From positions 310,001 through 374,000 of the forward strand of contig NZ_CP023668.1 in assembly GCF_002441935.1 (NCBI RefSeq): DNA of 64,000 bases, given 5' to 3'. Position 1 is the stretch's first letter, and every line of letters begins with the position of its first letter. A program made the translations under genes and the position numbers. Under the pieces are notes generated by a model. It did no database searches. It saw only the letters and a list, made by a program, of their open reading frames with translations, and had not been told where the DNA came from. Of this stretch, positions 24,268-57,221 are shown one piece after another. The DNA is from Mesoplasma lactucae ATCC 49193. Its GTDB lineage: Bacteria > Bacillota_I > Bacilli_A > Mycoplasmatales > Mycoplasmataceae.

Positions 24268-26532
24268 TTAATTAAATAAGTCTTCTATTTTTTCTACTAA
24301 AGTAGTTTTTCTTGGTATACCACTTCTATTAATTCCTTTATAGAAGGTATTAAAATCTCCAACAATAGTTAAGTTCTTTTTAGCTCTTGTAATTGCTGTA
24401 TAGATTATTTTATTGTTAATAAAATGTTCATTAACGCCTTTTTCTAAAACTAGAATAACGTTCTTATATTCAGAACCTTGAGTTTTGTGAACACTACATG
24501 CATAACTTAAAGTTGAATAATTAAAGTTATCAGCATAGAAGGTTTTTGTTTCACCATTAAATAAAACTTTAGCTTGATTGATCTTTCCATTGTGTTGTGA
24601 TATTTCTGAAATAATTCCAACATCTCCATTGTTTAAACCAGTTTCTGTTTCATTAACTAAATACATAATTTTGTCATCAACTATATATTTATATTCTCGT
24701 CTTTCAAAAGTTTGCTCATTTAAAGTCTTATCATCTTTTTTCAAAATTTCTTTTTGGTAAGTTTGTTGTAGCATTTTATTCAAACTATTAATTCCTAAAA
24801 TCCCTTTATAGAATGGAGCAATAATCTGTAAATCTAAAAGCGAATTTTCAACTTCTGGTTCAACTTCTTTTGAAAAGATTTTATCAATTGATTCAAGTTT
24901 ATCTTCAACATTCCCATCAAAAACAACATTAACATTATTCATATTTTTTAAATCTTCTTCAGAAGTAATTTCACGATTTAAAACTTTATAAGCTAAATCA
25001 ACAATATCATTTCCATTTTCTTGTCTATGAGGTTGTTTTAAATTAACCTTAGTAATTTGCTCAACGTCTAAAAGGTTAGCAAATAATTCTCCATATCCAA
25101 CAGAAGAAAGTTGATTTCTATCCCCAACTAAAATAATCTTTTGAATATCTTTTGCAGCATCAACAACTCTTGCAAATAAGAAGTTTTCAATCATTGATGA
25201 TTCATCTAAAATTAATAAATTATATTCTAATGGATTTGAATTATTGAATCTAAAGAATCCATTTTCTTCAGCACCAAGCATTTTATGAATAGTTGTCGCA
25301 TTTAATTCTTGATCAATTTCATTTAATCTTGCAGCAGCTCTTCCGGTTGGTGCTGCTACTTTAATATTTTGTTTATCTCAGTTATTTACATATTTAGCTA
25401 ATTTATAAATTCCTTTAATAACTGTAGATTTTCCAGTTCCAGGTCCACCAGTTAATAGCATAAAGTTGCTATTAATTGATTTTCTTAAAGCATCACGTTG
25501 TTCATTATCGTATTTAAAGTTTTGAATCTCTAGTTCAAATGCTAGTTCTTCTTCAACTTTTTCTATTAATGTTTCAATTAAGTTTTGATCATAAACATTC
25601 TTATCTTCAGCAACTGTTTTTTGATGAACAAATTTAGCAATTTCATTTTCATCATTTCAAGAAACATCAGAATAAATTCGATGATTTACAAAGTAAAGAA
25701 TTTTTAATTCCTTGGCTTTTAACAATCCTTTTTCTAAGGTCTTAGCATCAAAGATTTTTAAATAAGTTTGTAAATTCTTAGTAACTTTGGCAATGTTTGT
25801 ATAAGTATCACCAGTGGTTCAAAGAATGTCATTAACAACTTTGTTAGCAGTTCAAGCAATTCTGATCGGGTCATCTGGTTGTAACTTTTGAAAGTACATA
25901 GCAACCTTTTCAACTTCTTCAAATGGTTCTAGGTGATGGTCTTTAGCATAACGATAGAAATCTTTTTCTAAAATATCAGTTAATTCAACTTCTGAATCAG
26001 TATGTTCTTTTAAATAATTATAGAAATCGATTTTTAATTTATTTTCATAGAAGGTCTTTGTGTATTTATTTTCATTAACAACTTCTTTTAAAACGTGTTT
26101 AATAATATCAGCCTTTGGTTTTGCTAACTCTGGGATATCATATAAAGAATCTGGGTTAATCATGATTTTATCAACAATCTCAGTTTCATAATAATCAGCA
26201 ATAACTTGCGCTGCTTGTTTTCCAATTCCTGGGAAAAGTGAACTTGAAAGATAACTAACTGCTTGTTGTTTGGTTTCTCCAACACTAAGTTTAGATTCTA
26301 AAACATTAAAACTTTTCCCATATTTAGTATTGTCTTCAAACTCACCTAACAGTTCGTAATTAACATGTGGTTGTAATTGACCAATTTGGCCTTTAATTTT
26401 TAAAGAAGCATTTTCTTGTTTGTCACTTTTAAATAAAGCAACTCCTCAACCAGATTGGTTTTGAAAAAGAAATTTGGTGATAGTTCCAGTAATCGAAATT
26501 AATTCAGGTTTTTCTCTGTTTTGTTCTGTCAT
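24268..26532 (-). CDS. recD2: RecD2-like SF1 DNA helicase
   Basis: The product is 754 aa. N-terminal region with an OB-like start and a helix-hairpin-helix (LFPGIGKQAAQVIA near residue 90), then SF1B motifs: I GGPGTGKSTV near residue 360, Ia APTGRAAARL near residue 388, II LLILDESSMI near residue 430, III VGDRNQLSSVG near residue 455, V/VI near SYACSVHKTQGSEYKNV and YTAITRAKK near the C-terminus. RecD2 unwinds DNA 5'-3' without RecBC. GAGGTGAAGGG precedes ATG 26532. First gene of the operon with nagA. Confidence 0.93.
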
Positions 26533-26597
26533 TAACCCTTCACCTCACGTATCTATTTTATCAAATTTAACCCCTATTATTTTAAGGAGAAAAGAAA

Positions 26598-26628
26598 AAA
26601 CCAAGCTATTGAATTAATAGCTTGGTTT
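26598..26628 (-). terminator. Hairpin between the RNA region and recD2
   Basis: AAACCAAGCTATT (26598-26610) pairs perfectly with AATAGCTTGGTTT (26616-26628). The T-run is on the minus strand, so it ends some leftward transcript that reaches it from the gene-free region. Confidence 0.7.
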
Positions 26629-26674
26629 AGACAATAAAAGTGATTTTTTGTCTTATTAGATTATATTATAGTTG

Positions 26675-28264
26675 GTCAGACGTAAACCGCCTAGAAATGA
26701 GATTTAACCGACCAGTTAAAAAATTTAAAGAGATAAGTTTTTAAAGTTTAGATTAGAAAATAAGCATTGTAAAAGTCTTGAGAGAAAATAATATTTTTAC
26801 AATAAAGTTTCTAATTGATAAATAAGGATTTTATTTTTGATAAGAAATGATTCTTCATAATCCATAACCTTAAAAAAGAACAGAGAGAAGTAAAACTTTG
26901 AGAGAGAGCGTCTTAAAGGTCTCTGTTTCATATTATTTTTGGAATTTTTTAATAAATACTAACAATTATTTTTTTAAGAAAATAGTCTAACAATTAACTT
27001 AAGATTAGAGAGAAATATCTAAAGTTTGTTTTAATGAAACATTGAGGATCACGGCAACTATCAACGTTTAGGTACATCTTTTCAAAACCTCTCGACCGAA
27101 TTTTTAATTGGCATAATCATAAAAAACGGGATTTCTAAATTAAAGAGAGAAGTAAATTTAGAAATAGGGTTTTGAAATTCTGTAATATAGAGATCACCAG
27201 AGAGCAATCCTGAGAATGAGAAATAAGACTAAGAGCAGAAAGTTTTGAGAGAAAATAATATTTCTGGATAAGTCTTTTTCAAATTAAATAAGAATTAAAT
27301 TGAGAAACATTTGAAGAATTAAATTAACTAAGCAAGCATCACTAAGTCTACAAATTGTAGAAAGGAGAAAATTGTAGTCTTAGCTTATAGATATCATTTT
27401 ATTTAAGAGAAAATGTAATAAAACAATTTATATGCTGACTATAATCATTAATTTAATTTTCAAAGAATAATTCATTAAAGTCTTTTTTGACTATAGTTTT
27501 TGAGAGAGAAATAACAGATAATTTGCGTCCTCAGGCATAAGGACTGATTTACTATCATATTTCATAAACTTTAATTATCTGTAGTATAGCCAAAGTTGAC
27601 TTAAATTATAAGTTACAAGTTTTTAAAAACGAGTGACTGTGTATAAAATTTTGTGTTTTTTGTAGAGAGAAATAAATAACCTAAATTATTGCTATACCAA
27701 TCGATTTGCTTCGGGCAAGAGAGTAAATCGATTGTTTGAGAGATTTATAGCTATAGGGTATTTGTGGCATAACTTTTTTAAGCAAAGACCATAGAGAGAG
27801 TCGGTCTTTTAAGAAAGCAAGATGAGTTATAAACATCTTTTATGTAGAGAAAAGTTTTTCGTAGTTCAGAATTAGAGAGAGTTTCTGAACATTATTAAAC
27901 AAATATTTTTTATATTTGGACGAAAAATATAAAAATAAATTAACTAATTTTATAGATACCATGAGTATCTATTTTGTCTTCATATCTATACAGGCTATAG
28001 GTATAAAAACAATAATTTATCTAATAAGATAAATCTTTCCATATAACAACATCCATTTTTAAAACCAAATATCATAGCGAGAACTAAAAATATTAAGTTC
28101 GATTTTATGCATATTTGCACTTTTCGGATGGATGATTGATTTTTATTAATCACCGTCTATAACTATAGAAATACAAATAAAAAACTTGAACTTTATAGCC
28201 ATAGGCAGCGATCTGAAAATTAATCATTTTCATTGTTGCAAATGAGCCGAGTTCAAGTTTTTTT
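26675..28264 (+). ncRNA. Candidate large structured non-coding RNA
   Basis: About 1.6 kb with no ORF of note but many nested, often perfect stems: 26752-26815 around 26766-26803, 26996-27026, 27131-27165, 27236-27266, 27514-27582, 27698-27734, 27784-27810, 27864-27890, 27952-27972, 28015-28034. Most loops carry GAGAGAAA or AGAGAGAG; the 19-mer TTGAGAGAAAATAATATTT occurs at 26778 and 27245. Plus is favoured because a C(UUCGG)-type loop (27706-27718) and purine loops would then lie in RNA, and a hairpin with T7 ends it. A TATATTAT -10 is at 26662-26669. The size recalls ornate bacterial RNAs such as ROOL, GOLLD or OLE; I cannot assign a class. Confidence 0.65.
28181..28264. terminator. Bidirectional long-loop terminator
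   Basis: AAAACTTGAAC (28181-28191) pairs with GTTCAAGTTTT (28251-28261), 11 bp, with T-run on both strands. The 59-nt loop has its own inner stem (GAAAAT/ATTTTC). It would end the large RNA on plus and any transcript coming from 28.5 kb on minus. Confidence 0.65.
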
Positions 28265-28571
28265 GTTAACTATTCCCCTAATTACTTGCTAATGTAAGTA
28301 TCGCACTTTCTAGCACAAAAAACATTAAAAAACTAGCAAAAGTTGAAATATGAGAAAGTTATAATTATTAGATTGTTTATTTATGGGACTTTTTGAGAGT
28401 TTTCCACATAGCAAAAACAATAATAAAATTTTCCATTTTATTGTTACATTTTGGAACTTTTGGAAAAGCGCTATTTTCGGCCACTTAAAAAGAGGATTGT
28501 ATACAATCTGCAACTATCTTATAGTTAGTTAGCTTGAAGAAAATCGCAATATTTTTGAGAGCTTTACGAAT
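28265..28571. other. Gene-free region with operator-like palindrome
   Basis: No supported gene. Holds an AU-only hairpin (about 28414-28443), a TTTTCCACA resembling a DnaA box, a small hairpin AACTAT/ATAGTT (28512-28526), and a 14-bp palindrome. A minus-strand transcript starting near 28510 and ending at the 28181-28264 hairpin is possible; a TATAAG box lies just upstream of the palindrome on that strand. Confidence 0.4.
28495..28508. promoter_or_regulatory. Palindrome GATTGTATACAATC, operator-like
   Basis: Perfect 14-bp dyad with core TTGTATACAA, the same core as the site at the dhaK promoter. It resembles GntR-family operators (core TTGT-x2-ACAA). It lies just downstream of a weak TATAAG box on minus. 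Confidence 0.45.
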
Positions 28572-28600
28572 AAAAAATTAGGAAATTTCATTCCTAATTT
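28572..28600 (-). terminator. Terminator of the membrane paralogue array, distal gene
   Basis: AAATTAGGAA (28575-28584) pairs with TTCCTAATTT (28591-28600); T-run on minus. Follows the last gene of the five-paralogue array. Confidence 0.8.
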
Positions 28601-28607
28601 CTCCCTT

Positions 28608-29105
28608 TTATCTTGATACTCTTTTAGCAGTTCTAAAGTAACCTCATCCAGCACCAACTCCAGCAATGATTCATCCAGCAATAACTAGAACAAAATCACC
28701 TGCAATTGATCCTTTAGAATAGAATTCTTTTGGACTTTTATATCATGGATATCCAATTTCTGTTGTAGTCATAAAGATAGCAAACGAAGCAATCATTAAA
28801 CCCATTCCAACAGTTGAAAGGAAGATACTAATTCCTCCTAAAGCACTGTTTAAACGAGGCATCTTTCCAAAAAAGAATCCTACGATTGGTAGAATGATTG
28901 CAGCAGTTGATATAGCTCATCCTGATACTGCTAACATTCAAATTGTATTGACTCTATCACTTGATCTTTTATCGATTAAATCACTTAGCAATTGTGTTTC
29001 TTGACCATCAAGTTTAAATCCGATTACTTCAAAAGCAATTACAGACATAACAGCAAATAAAGCAACACCAAGTAATGGTCACAACATACGGAAATTAATT
29101 TTCAT
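28608..29105 (-). CDS. Four-TM paralogous membrane protein 1, 165 aa
   Basis: Member of a local family of five tandem genes; family not recognised. Shared plan: short MKIN start, TM1 with IAFEVIGF, TM2 beginning LAVSGWAIS, TM3 with LMIASFAIF, TM4 with GSIAGDFVLVIAGWI and a short basic tail (RTAKRVSR). This is the most divergent of the short copies. A CTCC/GGAG ribosome site precedes ATG 29105. Each gene in the array has its own hairpin, suggesting separate control. Confidence 0.8.
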
Positions 29106-29197
29106 ATTTTTTTCTCCTTAAAACGAAAGTCTTTTAGACTTCTTTCTACTATTATAGTTGTTTATTTAGCACAGTTGTAAAAGTTCGTAAAAGAAAA

Positions 29198-29222
29198 GAA
29201 AAATCACGTAAAACGTGATTAA
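29198..29222 (-). terminator. Terminator after paralogue 2
   Basis: AATCACGT and ACGTGATT around AAA, T-run on minus. Confidence 0.8.
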
Positions 29223-29228
29223 CATCTT

Positions 29229-29768
29229 CTATTTAGCTTTAGTTTTCTTTTCTTTAGTTTTAGCAACTAAATCAACTCTTGCAGCACCAATCCCTGAAAG
29301 TGCTAAAATTCCACCAACAATAATTAAGACTGATTGTCCAATGACTGCGCATTTAACTAGTCTATAAGTTTTATTTTTAATTTGTTGTTCTGATAGATGT
29401 AATGCAGTTTTATAGTTTGCATCAAACATTGATACTGAAGCAATTAATAAAACAAGCGCTAGAACTTCTAGGAAAGTTGTTGATCAAAAGATGATTCTAC
29501 TAATTTGTTTATTATTTTTGTAGAATAATCCAAATGTAGGAATCAATAATCCTACTCAAGCAAAAACTAATCCAGCAACTGCTAAACCATATGTGCTTTT
29601 CATTTTATCATCGCCAAATGTGTCTAATAAATTATTCAATTTAATAATTGTTATTTCATCATTGGGACCTTTATATCTAAAGCCAACTGCTTCAAAAGCA
29701 ATTATGGCAAAGATTCCAAAGAACAAAATGCCACCAATTGCTCAAAAATATTTTTTATTTATTTTCAT
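29229..29768 (-). CDS. Four-TM paralogous membrane protein 2, 179 aa
   Basis: Second gene of the array. Start MKINKKYFWAIGGILFFG is nearly the same as copy 3. TM1 holds FAIIAFEAVGFR, TM2 YGLAVAGLVFAWVGLLIP, TM3 LVLLIASVSMF, TM4 GQSVLIIVGGILALSGI, then a Lys-rich tail (KTKEKKTKAK). The TM1-TM2 loop is predicted outside and is the most variable part between copies, a pattern seen in surface-exposed paralogues; the biological reason is not known. Confidence 0.82.
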
Positions 29769-29831
29769 AACTTTTCTCTCTTCTTTGTTTTAATTGTAAC
29801 CCTTATAAGTGAATTAAAGAATAATAAATAC

Positions 29832-29855
29832 AAAAAACACGTTTAAAACGTGTTT
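29832..29855 (-). terminator. Terminator after paralogue 3
   Basis: AAACACGTTT and AAACGTGTTT, T-run on minus. Its stem resembles the hairpin after copy 2, as if duplicated with the gene. Confidence 0.8.
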
Positions 29856-29857
29856 AA

Positions 29858-30430
29858 TTAGTTAGCTTTAATAACAGTTTCTTTAACTTTAATAGTTAAG
29901 TTGTTTCTTGCGGCAATAATTCCTGCATCAGCAATTAAACCACCAACAATAATTAAGATAAATTGTCCAGCAACTGCACCTTTATTAATTGATACAGTTT
30001 CATTGTAATCATCAGTTGTATATAAATCTTCTAATGTTTTTAATAATGATTTAAAGTCAGCATCATAAACTGCAACTGAAGCAATCATCAATACCATTGC
30101 TAAAACTTCTACAAATAAAGTAGTTCAAAAGATTATTGCAGTATATTTAGCTTCTTTTTGATAAAGTAATCCAAATAATGGAATTAAAACTCCAACTCAA
30201 GCAAAAACTAATCCAGCAACTGCTAAACCGTAAATGTCTTGAATTTCTGAATAATTAGTTCCTTTTTCAAAATCATTTAATTTAATAGTTATAGATTGAG
30301 TGATTGTTCCATTTATACTTGTTAAAGTATCTTTCATTCTGAATCCAACAGCTTCAAAGGCAATAATAGCAAATACTCCAAAAAGTAAAATTGCACCAAT
30401 TGCTCAAAAATATTTTTTGTTAATTTTCAT
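29858..30430 (-). CDS. Four-TM paralogous membrane protein 3, 190 aa
   Basis: Closest to copy 2: same MKINKKYFWAIG start, FAIIAFEAVGFRMKD, YGLAVAGLVFAWVGVLIPLFGL, VLMIASVAVYD and GAVAGQFILIIVGGLIADAG. The loop between TM3 and TM4 is longer and acidic (LYTTDDYNETVS). Ends with IKVKETVIKAN. Its spacing and its own hairpin repeat the plan of the neighbours. Confidence 0.82.
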
Positions 30431-30494
30431 ATTTTCTCTCTTTTCCACTATCAATTCTAACTCTTAAATTCTAGTAAATAAATATTTTAAAAAA

Positions 30495-30520
30495 TAAAAA
30501 TGCATCACAAGGATGCATCA
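30495..30520 (-). terminator. Terminator after paralogue 4
   Basis: ATGCATC and GATGCAT around a 5-nt loop, T-run on minus. Confidence 0.8.
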
Positions 30521-30534
30521 ATTGTTTTTGGTTA

Positions 30535-30972
30535 TTAATCTCTAAAGTATGAGAAGTAGATTCCAGCACCAGCTGCTCCTGCTCCAACAAATACCATTAA
30601 GAATTGTCCAAATACAGCTCCACCATTTACATCTAAACCGTGGAATTTACTTGCGAATAATGAAATTGAAGCAATGAATAAAATCAATGATAATGCTTCC
30701 ATTCCAATTAATGTTCATAAAGTATATTTAGAATCTGTTTTATCTCAAAACATGTTCATTAATGGGATGATTAATCCTAATCAAGAGAACACTAATGCAG
30801 ATACTCCTAATCCGTAAATATTTCTTGAAACTTCGCTACTTGTATTAAATTGGTGTAAAGAAATAACTTCTCCACTTGCTCTATAACCAATAGCTTCTAA
30901 AGCAATAATTCCGAAAACTCCATAAATTAGAATCGCAATTGTTGCTCATAAGTATTTTTTATTAAAACTCAT
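30535..30972 (-). CDS. Four-TM paralogous membrane protein 4, 145 aa
   Basis: Shortest member. MSFNKKYLWATIAILIYG, then FGIIALEAIGYR, YGLGVSALVFSWLGLIIPL, LILFIASISLF and GGAVFGQFLMVFVGAGAAGAG. It ends in YFSYFRD with no long tail. Same gene plan and own terminator. Family not recognised. Confidence 0.82.
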
Positions 30973-31043
30973 ATATTTTCTCCCTATCTATATTCTTAAT
31001 TAATTATAAACGAGATATGAGTTATAACACTTATAAATTAACT

Positions 31044-31919
31044 CTATAAGGTATCTTCTTTTTCTTCAGTATCGTTTAGTTCGTCTTTAACAACGCGTTC
31101 AACTGGTACATCTTTTGTGGTTGTAGTAGATTTATCTGTGATAGTTTCTTTTTCATCATGTGAAAAAGGATCGTGTTTAACTTTTGTAGTTTCCACATTT
31201 TGATTAACGATAACTTTTTGAGTTCTTTCGCTATTTTCAGGTGTTTCAACAGGCATTACAGTAGTAGTTGTTTTTTCTTCTACTGATTTGTTGTTGTCTG
31301 ATTTTTTGTTGTCTTTGTTTTTGCTACCTTTGAATTTAAAAGTTCTTAAGTTAAATCCGTAGAATCCACGAACAACTCCAGCTAATCCAATTAAGAATCC
31401 AACTAAAACAATAATTACAATACCAGTGATTGCTCCACCGTTAATTGAATCTGCAGGTACAATTCCAGCAAATTTGTGGAAATCACGGCAGAATAATCCG
31501 ATTCCAGCAAACATTAATGCTGCTGCTAAAAGTACCATAACGACAGGAATAATTCCTAATCATTTAGTTAATTTTTTTGATGGACTTCAGAACATCATTG
31601 CAAATGGAACGATTACAGCACAAAATGCAATTACGATTCCAGAAATTGTTGCTCCATAAGTTGGGTTTTCACCGCTTAATTTTCCAACAGGAATTAAAGC
31701 ACTTCATCCGTTACCTTTAACAGATTGAACGCTTACTCCAAATCCCATACTTACAAATGCGATGCATCCTAATACACCAAATACAAGAATGGCTAAGATT
31801 GGTCAAATCATTGTTCAATCTACTTTGTATTTTTTCTTTTCTTTTTTAGGTTTACCATTTTTGCCGACCATGTCTTGATTTACAGGTGCGACATCTTGGT
31901 TTTTTTTATTTTTTTTCAT
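31044..31919 (-). CDS. Four-TM paralogous membrane protein 5 with long charged tail, 291 aa
   Basis: First-transcribed and longest member of the array. A Lys/Asn-rich N-terminus of about 30 residues precedes the four-TM core (VFGVLGCIAFVSMGFG, ATISGIVIAFCAVIVPF, LMFAGIGLF, GAITGIVIIVLVGFLIGLAG), which aligns with the other copies. A Thr/Glu/Lys-rich tail of about 110 residues (VEEKTTTTVMPVETPENSE ...) follows. The tail is probably cytosolic and disordered. Function unknown. Confidence 0.8.
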
Positions 31920-38949: not shown

Positions 38950-40455
38950 TTAAAGTTTAAGGCCGTATTTATCATTGATTTTTTTATCTACTAAATAAGT
39001 AATATCTTCTCCTAGATGTTCCAGCGAAATTTGATTAATTGTTTCAAATGATGCCATATTATCTTTATCATTAAGACATTCCTTCTCACAATATTTCGCA
39101 AGAACTTCAGCAGTTAAAGCAACGATAGATTTACCTTCAATATCCAATCTGTTACCTTTTGAAAATCTTGGCGATACAACAATGCAATATTTTGAAGCGT
39201 TAAGAGATATGTGTCGTTCAAGTCTTGAGGGATTTAAGTCAACATATGATTTTCTTGATTTAGCTTCCACATTAATTTTATATGTTCCATCATCAAATGA
39301 ATTCTCAAAGGCGCATAGTAAATCAGTATTACCCGAACCGCTAATAATTTCCACATTTAAATTTTCTCTAAATAATTCAAAGACAGGTTTTAATGATTGC
39401 TCAAAAGATTTTCCATCTTTGGTTCCGTATTTTGCTTCTTGTGTCATATGGTTAACCATTGATACAATTTCATTCACTCTTTCGGAGTCTTTAAATATTG
39501 TTGAGTAATAATTTAAAAAATCAATTTCATATAATTCTTCTTTTCAATCATCTTTTGAAAATATGTTAGGATCTTTTAATGATATTGGAATTTCTCAGCA
39601 AGGAAATTTTTTAAGTAATTCTTTTGAAGGCTCAATTAAATCATCAGCTAATTTGATATAACCAGGGAAATTCCCTTTTTTATTTTTTATTTTTACTCCA
39701 TCATTTCTAAATGTCTTAGTATTACCATGTTGGAATTTGAAAATGTGTCCTTCATTGTGTAAAGGATCGCCACATATTTCTAAAACATTAAACTCAGAAA
39801 ATAATCTAGAAAAATAATTTTTTACTTCATGTAGGCAATTTGCAAAAATAGACTCATAATTCGGAACATCAATAAATTTTTGTTTTTTGTTTTGATATGA
39901 AAGTTTTCTATAATCAAGCAAAACATCAATCAGTTCGTAATAATCATTCTCATTAATACTTGTTATGAAATTTAGTATGTATATAAATTCATCAAAATAA
40001 ATTCTATTGTTCAGTTTTTCTTCAGTTAACAGACTGATTATCAATCTTCCAAAATAAATTTCAAAATCCAAATCAGTCTTGCTATATGGATGAGGATATT
40101 GCATTGAAAAAAGATTAATAAGTACATTTTTTGATTCTTCTATGGTTCCTCTTACAATATTTGATGTGCTTATAGTAGGGATAAAATATTCTTCCTTGGT
40201 TTTGAGATTTTTTTGTGAATATCCAAACATGTAAAAAGCTAACTGACTTTTTCTAACTCCCATTGTAGAAGCTGAACCTTTTTTACTACGGCCTTTATAA
40301 GCTCCAGTATTAAAAAGCTCTTGTTTTATATCGTTATTATTAATAGATTTAGTTTTGTCGGAAATTGCATCAAGAAATGGGACAACGTGATCTCTAGAAC
40401 TAATATTTTTTTGTAAAATTCATCTATGTTCTTTAGTTCTTTTTAATTTTTCCAT
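38950..40455 (-). CDS. Type II restriction endonuclease, PD-(D/E)xK fold
   Basis: The product is 501 aa. The C-terminal third holds a nuclease-like core: SGSGNTDLLCAFENSF with the acidic D, then INVEAKSRKSY (E-A-K) near residue 380, matching D-x(n)-E-x-K. The N-terminal 300 residues would recognise DNA. No closer homology can be stated; AlwI-like size and layout is a guess. Its start overlaps the methyltransferase gene by 23 nt in another frame, so it is translated with it and after the protecting enzymes, the order that avoids self-cutting. Confidence 0.75.
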
Positions 40456-41509
40456 TGGAATTAATACCTCTCAAAATGTTTTCACTGAAACGTGGTGGAA
40501 TAGCCTCTCCTATCACAGTTCTAATTAGAGTTTCCGAACATCAATCAGGTAAGTCTAAATCAGGATTTAATGAAGATACAATGAAAGTTTCTCTCAGTGT
40601 TAATGCGCGAGCATCGCTATATGTGCCATCTTTATTTTTTCTTCCTGGATGAACATTATTGTGTCCACCCATACTTCCATTGTTAATAGCTCTAGCTGGG
40701 GAAGGTTCATTTCACTTCATTCGTTTATATGTGTTATGAAAACCTTTAATTTTTTCACCATTAGGTTTTCTAGGATAATAAAAATCGTTTGCCATAGCAG
40801 ATTTTCCTTCTGGAGTATGTGACATAGCCAAAATTTCACGGTCATTATGAACTTTTGCCTTATGTCATTTTATTCCACTATCTTGTCCCGATTCTAAAGA
40901 TGGAAGATCACCAATAGCTTCTTCTAAAGTTATTCTTTTTTTTGGAATCGGGTCTGCTCATTTTAAGTTATTTTTGAACATTTTTATGAAGCCTCTAGGG
41001 CGGCTTTGAGGAACACCATAATCCGCAGCATTTAATACAAAGGAATCAATATTATATTTATCAGAAAATTCAATATGCATAATATCAGTAAGTTTTTTTA
41101 ACTCACCTTTATATGGAAAAAATAATTTTAAAAATTTTGGAACATTTTCTATTAATATGTAGTCGAAATCATTGTCTTTTATCATATCTATTACATAAAA
41201 TATTAAATAATTTCTTTTATCAGTTGAATATTCTTTTTTTCCCATTGTGCTCATACCTTGGCATGGAGGGGTGGCAATTAAAAATTTACAATCATTTTTT
41301 TTAACTTGTTCATCAAACTTTTTAAATACTTGCTCATCGGTAATATCACCGCAAATCATTTCAGTTTCTGGATGAAAAAAACTATATAGAGCTGCTCTTT
41401 TACTTAAAAGTTCGTTCGCTACTTTGATGTCAATCCCAATTTCATCAAAGTAAGTTTCAGCGATTCCTGCGCTAGAAAACATAGATGCGCCTTTTATATT
41501 TTTAGTCAT
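40433..41509 (-). CDS. C5-cytosine DNA methyltransferase 1
   Basis: The product is 358 aa. It places a methyl on carbon 5 of cytosine in one strand of the site. Seen: motif [17 protein letters not shown], motif IV with catalytic Cys ATPPCQGMS near residue 82, motif VI LIENV near residue 122, motif VIII QSRPRG near residue 175, and motif X IGEAIPP. Paralogue of the neighbouring enzyme over its whole length; the target-recognition part (after SPARAINNG) differs. Overlaps the second methyltransferase by 8 nt upstream and the nuclease downstream. Confidence 0.9.
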
Positions 41510-42575
41510 TTTTCTTAAGCCCTTTCAATAATGAATTAATTAATTTTGGAGGGACAGCTTCACCAATCATTTGTCTTATTTGTATATCAGAAGAAAAATT
41601 AGGGATATCCATGTCAGGGTTTAAAGAAGATAAAATAAACAATTCTCTTAATGACAAAACTCTAGCATCAGAATAAGTTCCATCAGGTCTTTTTCTACCT
41701 GGATGGACATTACTTTGTGATGAAATACAATCATTTCTCATTGTGATTGTTGGTGCTGGTTCATCTCAAGACATTCTTTTATATGATGCTGCATACCCTT
41801 TAACTCTTTCACCAGTTTTTTTATTTTTTGGGTAGTAAATTTCATTTTCAAAAGCAGAATGCCCAGAAGGTGTGTGAGAAAGAATCTCAATATGCTCAGG
41901 AGTGTGCTTTCGAGCATTATGATTTTTTATATTAGATGTTTCATTTGATTCTAGAGATGGTAGATCGCCAATTGCCTCTCTTAACGTAATTGGTTTATGC
42001 TTTTTAGGTTCTTCTCAATCATTACCATCTTTTCACATTCTGATAATTGAACGTTCTCTATGTTGAGGCACTCCATAATATTGAGCATCAAATATTTCAA
42101 AGGAAAGATTATATTTGTCACTATATTTATTTCTCACTATTTCCTCAATTGATTTCAAAGAACCATTGCTAGGATATTTAATTTTAAAAAAACGAGCTAC
42201 ATTTTCTATCATTACGTATTCAGGATCTAATTCATCAATGATATCAAAAACATCAAAAATTAAGTAATTTCTATCATCAGATAACATTTGATCATTAGAC
42301 TTGTTTTTTCCAATTAAACTAACTCCTTGACAAGGAGGAGTTGCAAAAATGAAATTAACCTTCTTCTTTTTTGCTTCGTTAATTATTTTGTCTTTTATGC
42401 TTTTTTCTGTAATATCTCCGCAAATCATTTCAGTTTTTGGATGTCAAAATTGGTGAGTTTTTGCCCTTATAGGCAATAATTCAGAAGACAATACAACCTT
42501 CGAATCAGTCCCATCAAAGCCAAATTCTGCAATTCCGGCACTAGAAAAAAGAGATAAAACTCTATTCTTTCCCAT
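41502..42575 (-). CDS. C5-cytosine DNA methyltransferase 2
   Basis: The product is 357 aa, first gene of the restriction-modification operon. Motif [16 protein letters not shown], motif IV FATPPCQGVS near residue 83, motif VI MIENV near residue 125, motif VIII QHRERS near residue 180, motif X IGEAVPP. Two different C5 enzymes in tandem are what is expected when the site is asymmetric and each strand needs its own enzyme. GGGGAAAA precedes ATG 42575. Confidence 0.9.
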
Positions 42576-42710
42576 ATTTTTTCCCCTTTTCAATTGAATA
42601 TTAAAAAATAAATAAAATTGAATTTTTATTCACTTATGATATTTTTACAATACTAAATTATTCAATTTCGATTATATCAAACAGAAACAAGTTTAGTGGG
42701 GGTAATGAAA
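42576..42710. other. Promoter region of the restriction-modification operon
   Basis: AT-rich spacer. On minus a TATAAT box lies near 42671-42676, about 95 nt before the methyltransferase start; no clear -35. Confidence 0.4.
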
Positions 42711-56522: not shown

Positions 56523-56683
56523 AATGGAGCAGGTGAAGGGAATCGAACCCTCACAGTCAGCTTGGAAGGCTGAAGTTCTACCATTAAACTACACCTGCGT
56601 TTAACACTTCCTTATAATACCTTATTCTCAATATTTGTGTCAACGGTTTTTCTTTAAAAAGTTGTCAAAATGATTAAATTTCT
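56523..56683. repeat. 161-bp direct repeat, copy 1
   Basis: Identical to 57061-57221 over 161 bp. It spans the tRNA-Gly gene and about 85 bp of its promoter region, offset 538 bp. Confidence 0.93.
56525..56598 (-). tRNA. tRNA-Gly (UCC), copy 1
   Basis: 74 nt including encoded CCA. Acceptor GCAGGTG/CACCTGC, anticodon loop CTTCCAA reading UCC, T-loop GGTTCGATTCC. On minus the promoter is TTGACA, 18-nt spacer, TATTAT, some 10-15 nt ahead. It reads GGA (and, by wobble in mollicutes, likely all GGN). Confidence 0.97.
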
Positions 56684-57060: not shown

Positions 57061-57221
57061 AATGGAGCAGGTGAAGGGAATCGAACCCTCACAGTCAGCT
57101 TGGAAGGCTGAAGTTCTACCATTAAACTACACCTGCGTTTAACACTTCCTTATAATACCTTATTCTCAATATTTGTGTCAACGGTTTTTCTTTAAAAAGT
57201 TGTCAAAATGATTAAATTTCT
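57061..57221. repeat. 161-bp direct repeat, copy 2
   Basis: Identical to 56523-56683, covering the second tRNA-Gly and its promoter. Confidence 0.93.
57063..57136 (-). tRNA. tRNA-Gly (UCC), copy 2
   Basis: Identical to copy 1, 74 nt with CCA. Same TTGACA/TATTAT promoter on minus inside the repeat. Different terminator downstream, which shows the duplication stopped at the gene end. Confidence 0.97.

Follow-up and report, generated by a model that had tools for sequence, protein, structure and literature searches.

Bacteria rarely encode long structured RNAs; CsrB has a length of approximately 370 nt. CsrB carries GGA motifs in repeated elements and titrates CsrA (PMC7652899). LhrC of Listeria monocytogenes is G-poor, contains three redundant CU-rich sites and blocks a Shine-Dalgarno sequence (PMC4132741). 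In the ornate RNAs, loops bridge chains (PMC12286853). Here we describe a locus of Mesoplasma lactucae that can be compared with all three.

Results

A candidate RNA gene between recD2 and a membrane-protein array

We analyzed positions 310001-374000 of the M. lactucae genome (a single contig of 837,471 bp). All coordinates refer to this 64-kb window, in which the G+C content is 29.4% and genes use TGA as a tryptophan codon. A gap of approximately 2 kb separates recD2 (start at 26532, minus strand) from the last gene of an array encoding membrane proteins (28608-29105, minus strand). A first-pass annotation, made from the letters alone, had proposed that 26675-28264 holds no credible protein gene and instead encodes a non-coding RNA that is large, structured and modular and whose loops repeat one motif. 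As proposed, coding capacity is lacking: with TGA read as tryptophan, no ORF of at least 80 amino acids lies within 26604-28608 on either strand, the longest ATG ORF inside the proposed RNA gene is 51 amino acids, and no reading frame that uses UGA as tryptophan accounts for the region. The extent of the region now appears wider, at about 26595-28290. For comparison, we used the only other genome of the same genus examined, G001 (~800 kb; G+C 32% at the corresponding locus, L027). The elements that delimit the gene are as follows.

26595-28290, minus strand: proposed non-coding RNA gene of ~1.7 kb, 5′ end ~28290 and 3′ end ~26595, the ends placed from promoter-like and terminator elements positioned alike in G001; no ORF; fold z -9.6 over 26641-28270
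28281-28420, minus strand: conserved upstream block with the proposed promoter; over 140 columns it is 70% identical to its G001 counterpart (E 1.7e-9), and no other DNA match between the loci is as strong
28297-28302, minus strand: -10-like GATACT after TGC, aligned with TGT AATACT in G001
26598-26628, minus strand: intrinsic terminator of the RNA, a 13-bp stem then TTTCTTTTC; the sole terminator-like site called in 26300-28800
26555-26560, minus strand: -10-like TAAAAT of recD2 itself, lying downstream of the terminator of the RNA; TTTGATAAAAT precedes recD2 in G001 too
28576-28599, minus strand: hairpin of the membrane array's terminator, then a T run, read by eye; a terminator-like hairpin follows the array in G001 too
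28400-28408, plus strand: DnaA-box-like TTTTCCACA; no other TTWTCCACA occurs in the window, where chance predicts 2.6; TGTGGAAAACT is identical in G001 (L027 near 8690)

In M. florum, promoters combine a -10 box with a partial EXT element and a degenerate -35 (PMC7745072). Judged by its sequence, the conserved block at the 5′ end fits this Mesoplasma pattern, and ATTAGCAA comes after TGC-GATACT or TGT-AATACT in both species. The G001 terminator (L027 10256-10281) matches in strand and position, lying where the gap meets recD2, with an unrelated stem sequence. Because the array terminator comes before the conserved block, and the RNA terminator is followed by a separate TTTGATAAAAT for recD2, the RNA looks like a free-standing gene. 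The locus has the sequence features of an independent gene: a terminator called in both species, a promoter-like block conserved at the sequence level and no ORF.

Several neighboring features were also recorded. The single DnaA-box-like TTTTCCACA, conserved in G001, sits some 100 bases upstream of the promoter proposed for the RNA. The RNA might have a link to replication. The array (28608-31919, minus strand) encodes five related small membrane proteins and extends from the RNA gene to gyrA; searches of its proteins with four Pfam families gave nothing above the cut-off, and its G001 equivalent has two such genes only. Elsewhere in the window, at 38950-42593 (minus strand), two adjacent cytosine DNA methyltransferase-like genes (40433-42593) adjoin a restriction-like gene (38950-40485), as read from translations only. 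Two tRNA genes at 56528-56598 and 57066-57136 (minus strand), approximately 540 bases apart, have equal scores and identical aligned sequence.

A repeated CU motif is exposed in the loops of a minus-strand RNA

The stems of the region are more stable than those of dinucleotide shuffles, in line with a large structured RNA. The first-pass annotation had placed it on the plus strand with GAGAGAAA loops; instead, fold z scores, G-U pairs, motif accessibility and the placement of promoter and terminator agree, in both species, that the RNA is encoded on the minus strand, where the loops are CUCUC. Over the whole region, the fold z was -9.6 on the minus strand versus -5.4 on the plus strand in M. 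lactucae, and -5.0 versus -1.8 in G001.

The enrichment of the motif, which the first-pass annotation had noticed as plus-strand GAGAG, is real. In 26675-28264 there are 18 of the window's 23 plus-strand copies of GAGAG and a single CTCTC; over the whole RNA gene, the 18 copies (overlapping, in 13 independent runs) compare with an expectation of 0.14 based on the remainder of the window. The 8-mer TAGAGAGA, related to GAGAG, is clustered genome-wide at the RNA locus only. The repeat is also genuine, with 25-nt copies at 26772 and 27239 (24/25 identical). Read on the minus strand, the exposed element has the rough consensus (U/G)CUCUCU(A/C)A. The RNA is G-poor (11% G), with a G+C content of about 26-29% in the region. 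The following hairpins and loops carry the motif; probabilities are those of CUCUC being unpaired.

27864-27890, minus strand: CU hairpin, GUUCAGAA with loop ACUCUCUCUAA; unpaired 1.00
27784-27809, minus strand: CU hairpin, AAAGACC with loop GACUCUCUCUAU; unpaired 0.96-0.99
27236-27266, minus strand: CU hairpin, CAGAAA with loop UAUUAUUUUCUCUCAAAAC, copy 1 of the 25-nt repeat; unpaired 1.00
26767-26802, minus strand: CU hairpin, UUGUAAAA with loop AUAUUAUUUUCUCUCAAGAC, copy 2 of the 25-nt repeat; unpaired 0.95
27132-27164, minus strand: CU hairpin, UUUCUAAAUU with loop UACUUCUCUCUUUA; unpaired 1.00
26999-27023, minus strand: CU hairpin with loop AUUUCUCUCUA; unpaired 0.76
26896-26918, minus strand: CU internal or apical loop GCUCUCUCUC; unpaired 0.99-1.00
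27698-27734, minus strand: long hairpin, CAAUCGAUUU with ACUCUCUUGCCCGAAGC; a strong stem whose CUCUC is only 0.32 unpaired
27658-27669, minus strand: CU element CUCUCUACAAAA, with sequence conserved in G001 (L027 9434)

Redundant, exposed CU sites, as in LhrC, were found in both species: the mean unpaired probability of CUCUC on the minus strand was 0.84 across 13 runs in M. lactucae and 0.90 across six runs in G001, versus 0.41 and 0.39 overall, and no circular shift scored as high. For GAGAG on the plus strand, the values were 0.61 in M. lactucae and 0.45 in G001 (0.43 overall, shift p 0.42). The complement of the motif is nearly missing from the RNA, as GAGAG occurs once in M. lactucae and not at all in G001. 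Since CUCUC is open and its complement is nearly absent, a partner in trans is suggested. A long-range closing helix (26647-26661 with 28019-28033) is probably due to chance, and on the minus strand its second arm forms part of a local hairpin.

Two hairpins covary between M. lactucae and a diverged homologue

M. lactucae and G001 share the gene order recD2, a 1.9-kb gap, a membrane-array gene and gyrA. The computational comparison of these two genomes, on which the whole analysis is based, identifies a diverged homologue of ~1.5 kb in G001 versus ~1.7 kb in M. lactucae. The two gaps have in common the promoter-like block, TTTTGTAGAGAGAA and two hairpin loops, and have otherwise diverged beyond BLAST detection. 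Upstream of recD2 in G001, eight CTCTC copies lie within 620 bases, and the CU hairpins are modular, with a number (13 versus six runs) and place that vary between the species. The two invariant loops belong to the hairpins listed next.

27972-28013, minus strand: hairpin A, in which the loop AGCCUGUA (27989-27996) is invariant; both species retain all 14 pairs, of which 7 differ on both sides
27905-27937, minus strand: hairpin B, in which the loop UUCGUCC (27918-27924) is invariant; both species retain all 10 pairs, of which 5 differ on both sides

Together, 12 of the 24 pairs changed on both sides with pairing at 100%, a result that none of 500 shuffles equaled; these counts come from two hairpins in two sequences, aligned by hand after removing a 3-nt bulge of G001 and trimming 8 nt of M. 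lactucae linker. Sliding the partners lowered pairing to 38-50%. These are the compensatory base-pair changes that characterize a structured RNA under selection, and the covariation by which the first-pass annotation could be checked is thus present in the homologue. The minus strand pairs all 48 cells, using G-U in three; read on the plus strand, those three turn into A-C, leaving 45/48 paired.

We searched for relatives in several ways. In six other genera sampled, the recD2 flank has no large gap on the RNA side, and a recD2-anchored scan of named genomes yielded only M. seiffertii, of the same family. Searches with blastn against phages, plasmids and family genomes gave no convincing DNA match to the RNA locus. 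A covariance model of hairpins A and B scored 80 bits in M. lactucae and 98 bits in G001, both by construction, and found nothing beyond noise in other genera among 60 family and 148 order genomes, under strict filters that very diverged relatives could escape. The pattern GGACGAA..ACAGGC, sought in 60 family and 395 class genomes, occurred beyond chance only in M. lactucae and G001. One match, in G034, was rejected as it reads as ParA-like coding sequence, and the class-genome matches were rejected as their frequency was close to the control rate. More than 120 viral-contig matches to the same kind of pattern, none with a comparable CUCUC cluster, were judged to be chance, and two viral matches to TTCTCTCTACAAAAWACA lacked the other motifs.

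Possible partners of the CU loops

We tentatively favor, at somewhat less than an even chance, a multivalent trans-acting regulatory RNA whose CU loops would most likely dock on purine-rich translation starts. Transcription from a free-standing minus-strand gene (about 28290 to 26595), which we infer from the flanking elements, would yield a chain of mostly local hairpins that would hold ~13 redundant CUCUC stretches open in loops. Every CU loop would be an equivalent docking site, so that one RNA could occupy many partner copies. If the likeliest partner is a purine-rich translation-start sequence, ribosome binding would be blocked or titrated, as by LhrC but on a much larger scale. Both the regulatory role and the identity of the partner are proposed from loop anatomy and pairing scores.

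Loop pairing energies were -5.0 kcal/mol for translation starts versus -2.5 kcal/mol for coding sequence. At translation starts outside the array, however, the loops had no advantage over shuffled loops (z -1.0), nor did true starts have one over reversed starts. As these controls score alike, the general preference for starts reflects only composition, and we rejected general Shine-Dalgarno targeting. The loops far outscored shuffled loops at three array genes adjoining the RNA in M. lactucae (29229, 29858 and 30535; z -10.4, -8.3 and -7.7), a fit noticed after the fact among paralogues; three other genes in the window score z -5 to -6.5, and G001 has no comparable loop fit to its array genes. 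GAGAG precedes the start codon of two of the 42 genes in the window, both in the membrane array. The Shine-Dalgarno regions of 29229-29768 and 29858-30430 (minus strand) are GAGAGAAAA, a perfect complement of the UUUUCUCUC loops (9-10 bp) that is not conserved in G001. Among genes preceded by AGAGAGA, none was recognized as common to M. lactucae and G001, and comparison of the two genomes gave no conserved mRNA target of the RNA. Hfq was not found in the M. lactucae genome. The UCCC motif of Gram-positive Shine-Dalgarno-binding small RNAs is not repeated, occurring once in the M. lactucae RNA and nowhere in that of G001.

Because the loop fit is post hoc, involves paralogous genes, is accompanied by other high scorers and has no counterpart in G001, pairing with RNA stays a tentative preference, and a second explanation, rather unlikely but to be taken seriously, is that the same RNA gene acts as a sponge for a pyrimidine-binding protein, with one copy bound per CUCUC loop, in the manner of CsrB and RsmZ. 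Many near-identical short motifs in hairpin loops, in numbers that vary by species (13 versus six runs), and the lack of a conserved mRNA target in our comparison are what this explanation would lead one to expect. Against it, CsrA and Hfq are missing from the genome (the CsrA/RsmA family, PF02599, was absent from M. lactucae and present in 3 of 14 control genomes), and we identified no candidate CU-binding protein. GGA is also rare: the 1696 nt contain six GGA and three ANGGA versus 13 CUCUC runs, which is not the motif repetition of CsrB and RsmZ. As there is neither CsrA nor Hfq, and neither GGA nor UCCC is repeated like the CU motif, the RNA is in neither the LhrC nor the CsrB family.

Other explanations of the locus

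It is improbable that the locus encodes an architectural, self-assembling ornate RNA of the ROOL, GOLLD or OLE type, in which AGCCUGUA, UUCGUCC and the CU loops would make tertiary or inter-molecular contacts. The RNA is large, with many hairpins, and two invariant loops cap freely varying stems, as where loops bridge chains (PMC12286853). However, with almost no complement of CUCUC within the RNA, the CU loops cannot kiss each other; the hairpins are mostly isolated and weak at the low G+C content; and the setting is not that of a phage. At the gathering score, none of 4227 Rfam families matched the M. lactucae region or the G001 locus. ROOL, GOLLD, OLE, HEARO and raiA gave no match even at E values up to 10 or 5, and at high E both loci gave only chance matches. 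The first-pass view that no class can be assigned therefore holds, and the likeness to ROOL, GOLLD and OLE that it raised does not amount to membership, for which a covariance-model match is lacking.

Still less probable is that the region serves recD2 as a 5′ leader or attenuator of great length and is not a free RNA. The RNA is on the same strand, directly upstream, and its terminator lies ~65 nt before the recD2 start. Between the terminator and recD2, however, both species have the promoter-like element TTTGATAAAAT, which speaks against a leader of recD2, and we know of no leader so long with a dozen identical loops.

We consider a plus-strand RNA with GAGAG loops, as in the first-pass annotation, highly improbable: its fold also exceeds chance in M. 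lactucae (z -5.4) and T runs flank one hairpin, near 28179-28263, in both directions, but the G001 fold is weak (z -1.8), GAGAG in G001 is unpaired at about the average level (0.45 versus 0.43, shift p 0.42), the conserved hairpins acquire three A-C mismatches, and no plus-strand terminator was found at the matching place in G001. There is equally little chance that the locus is non-functional, whether a degenerate repeat, a mobile-element remnant with inverted repeats or a DNA-level structure only, since, despite weak primary conservation, 12 of 24 pairs carry compensatory changes around invariant loops, the motif is enriched and accessible in both species, and it clusters nowhere else in the genome.

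Discussion

A literature search of open papers gave no account of such an RNA in Mollicutes. We regard as possible, though doubtful, a giant multivalent RNA of a new class, in which a 1.7-kb transcript would present a docking array of at least a dozen identical pyrimidine loops, replacing the CsrA- or Hfq-type control that is absent from a near-minimal genome, with a number of sites that changes fast between species. In a genome of 837 kb from which most regulators have been lost, such a gene would occupy 0.2% of the sequence. If true, this would be a large RNA class outside Rfam with a simple, testable anatomy (one loop motif in many copies), in a host that is culturable and related to the model Mesoplasma florum.

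Comparison with known systems

Like ROOL, GOLLD and OLE, whose function is not known, the RNA belongs to a large size class and has many stems and conserved loops on covarying stems (PMC12286853); it differs in having no covariance-model match, no phage or tRNA-island setting and a single loop motif repeated many times. With CsrB/CsrC and RsmY/RsmZ it shares one short motif presented many times in hairpin loops, as if for many partner copies (PMC7652899). Unlike in CsrB, the motif is CUCUC rather than GGA, the genome lacks CsrA and the RNA is several times longer. LhrC resembles it in being G-poor, in carrying redundant CU-rich sites in loops or single-stranded parts and, as proposed here, in having purine-rich start targets (PMC4132741). 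LhrC has three sites with UCCC, whereas the present RNA is ~1.7 kb long with 13 CUCUC sites, no UCCC repeat, a genome without Hfq and targets that are proposed only. Large structured RNAs and multi-site regulatory RNAs are each already known; as far as we can tell, their combination at such a scale in a near-minimal genome is new.
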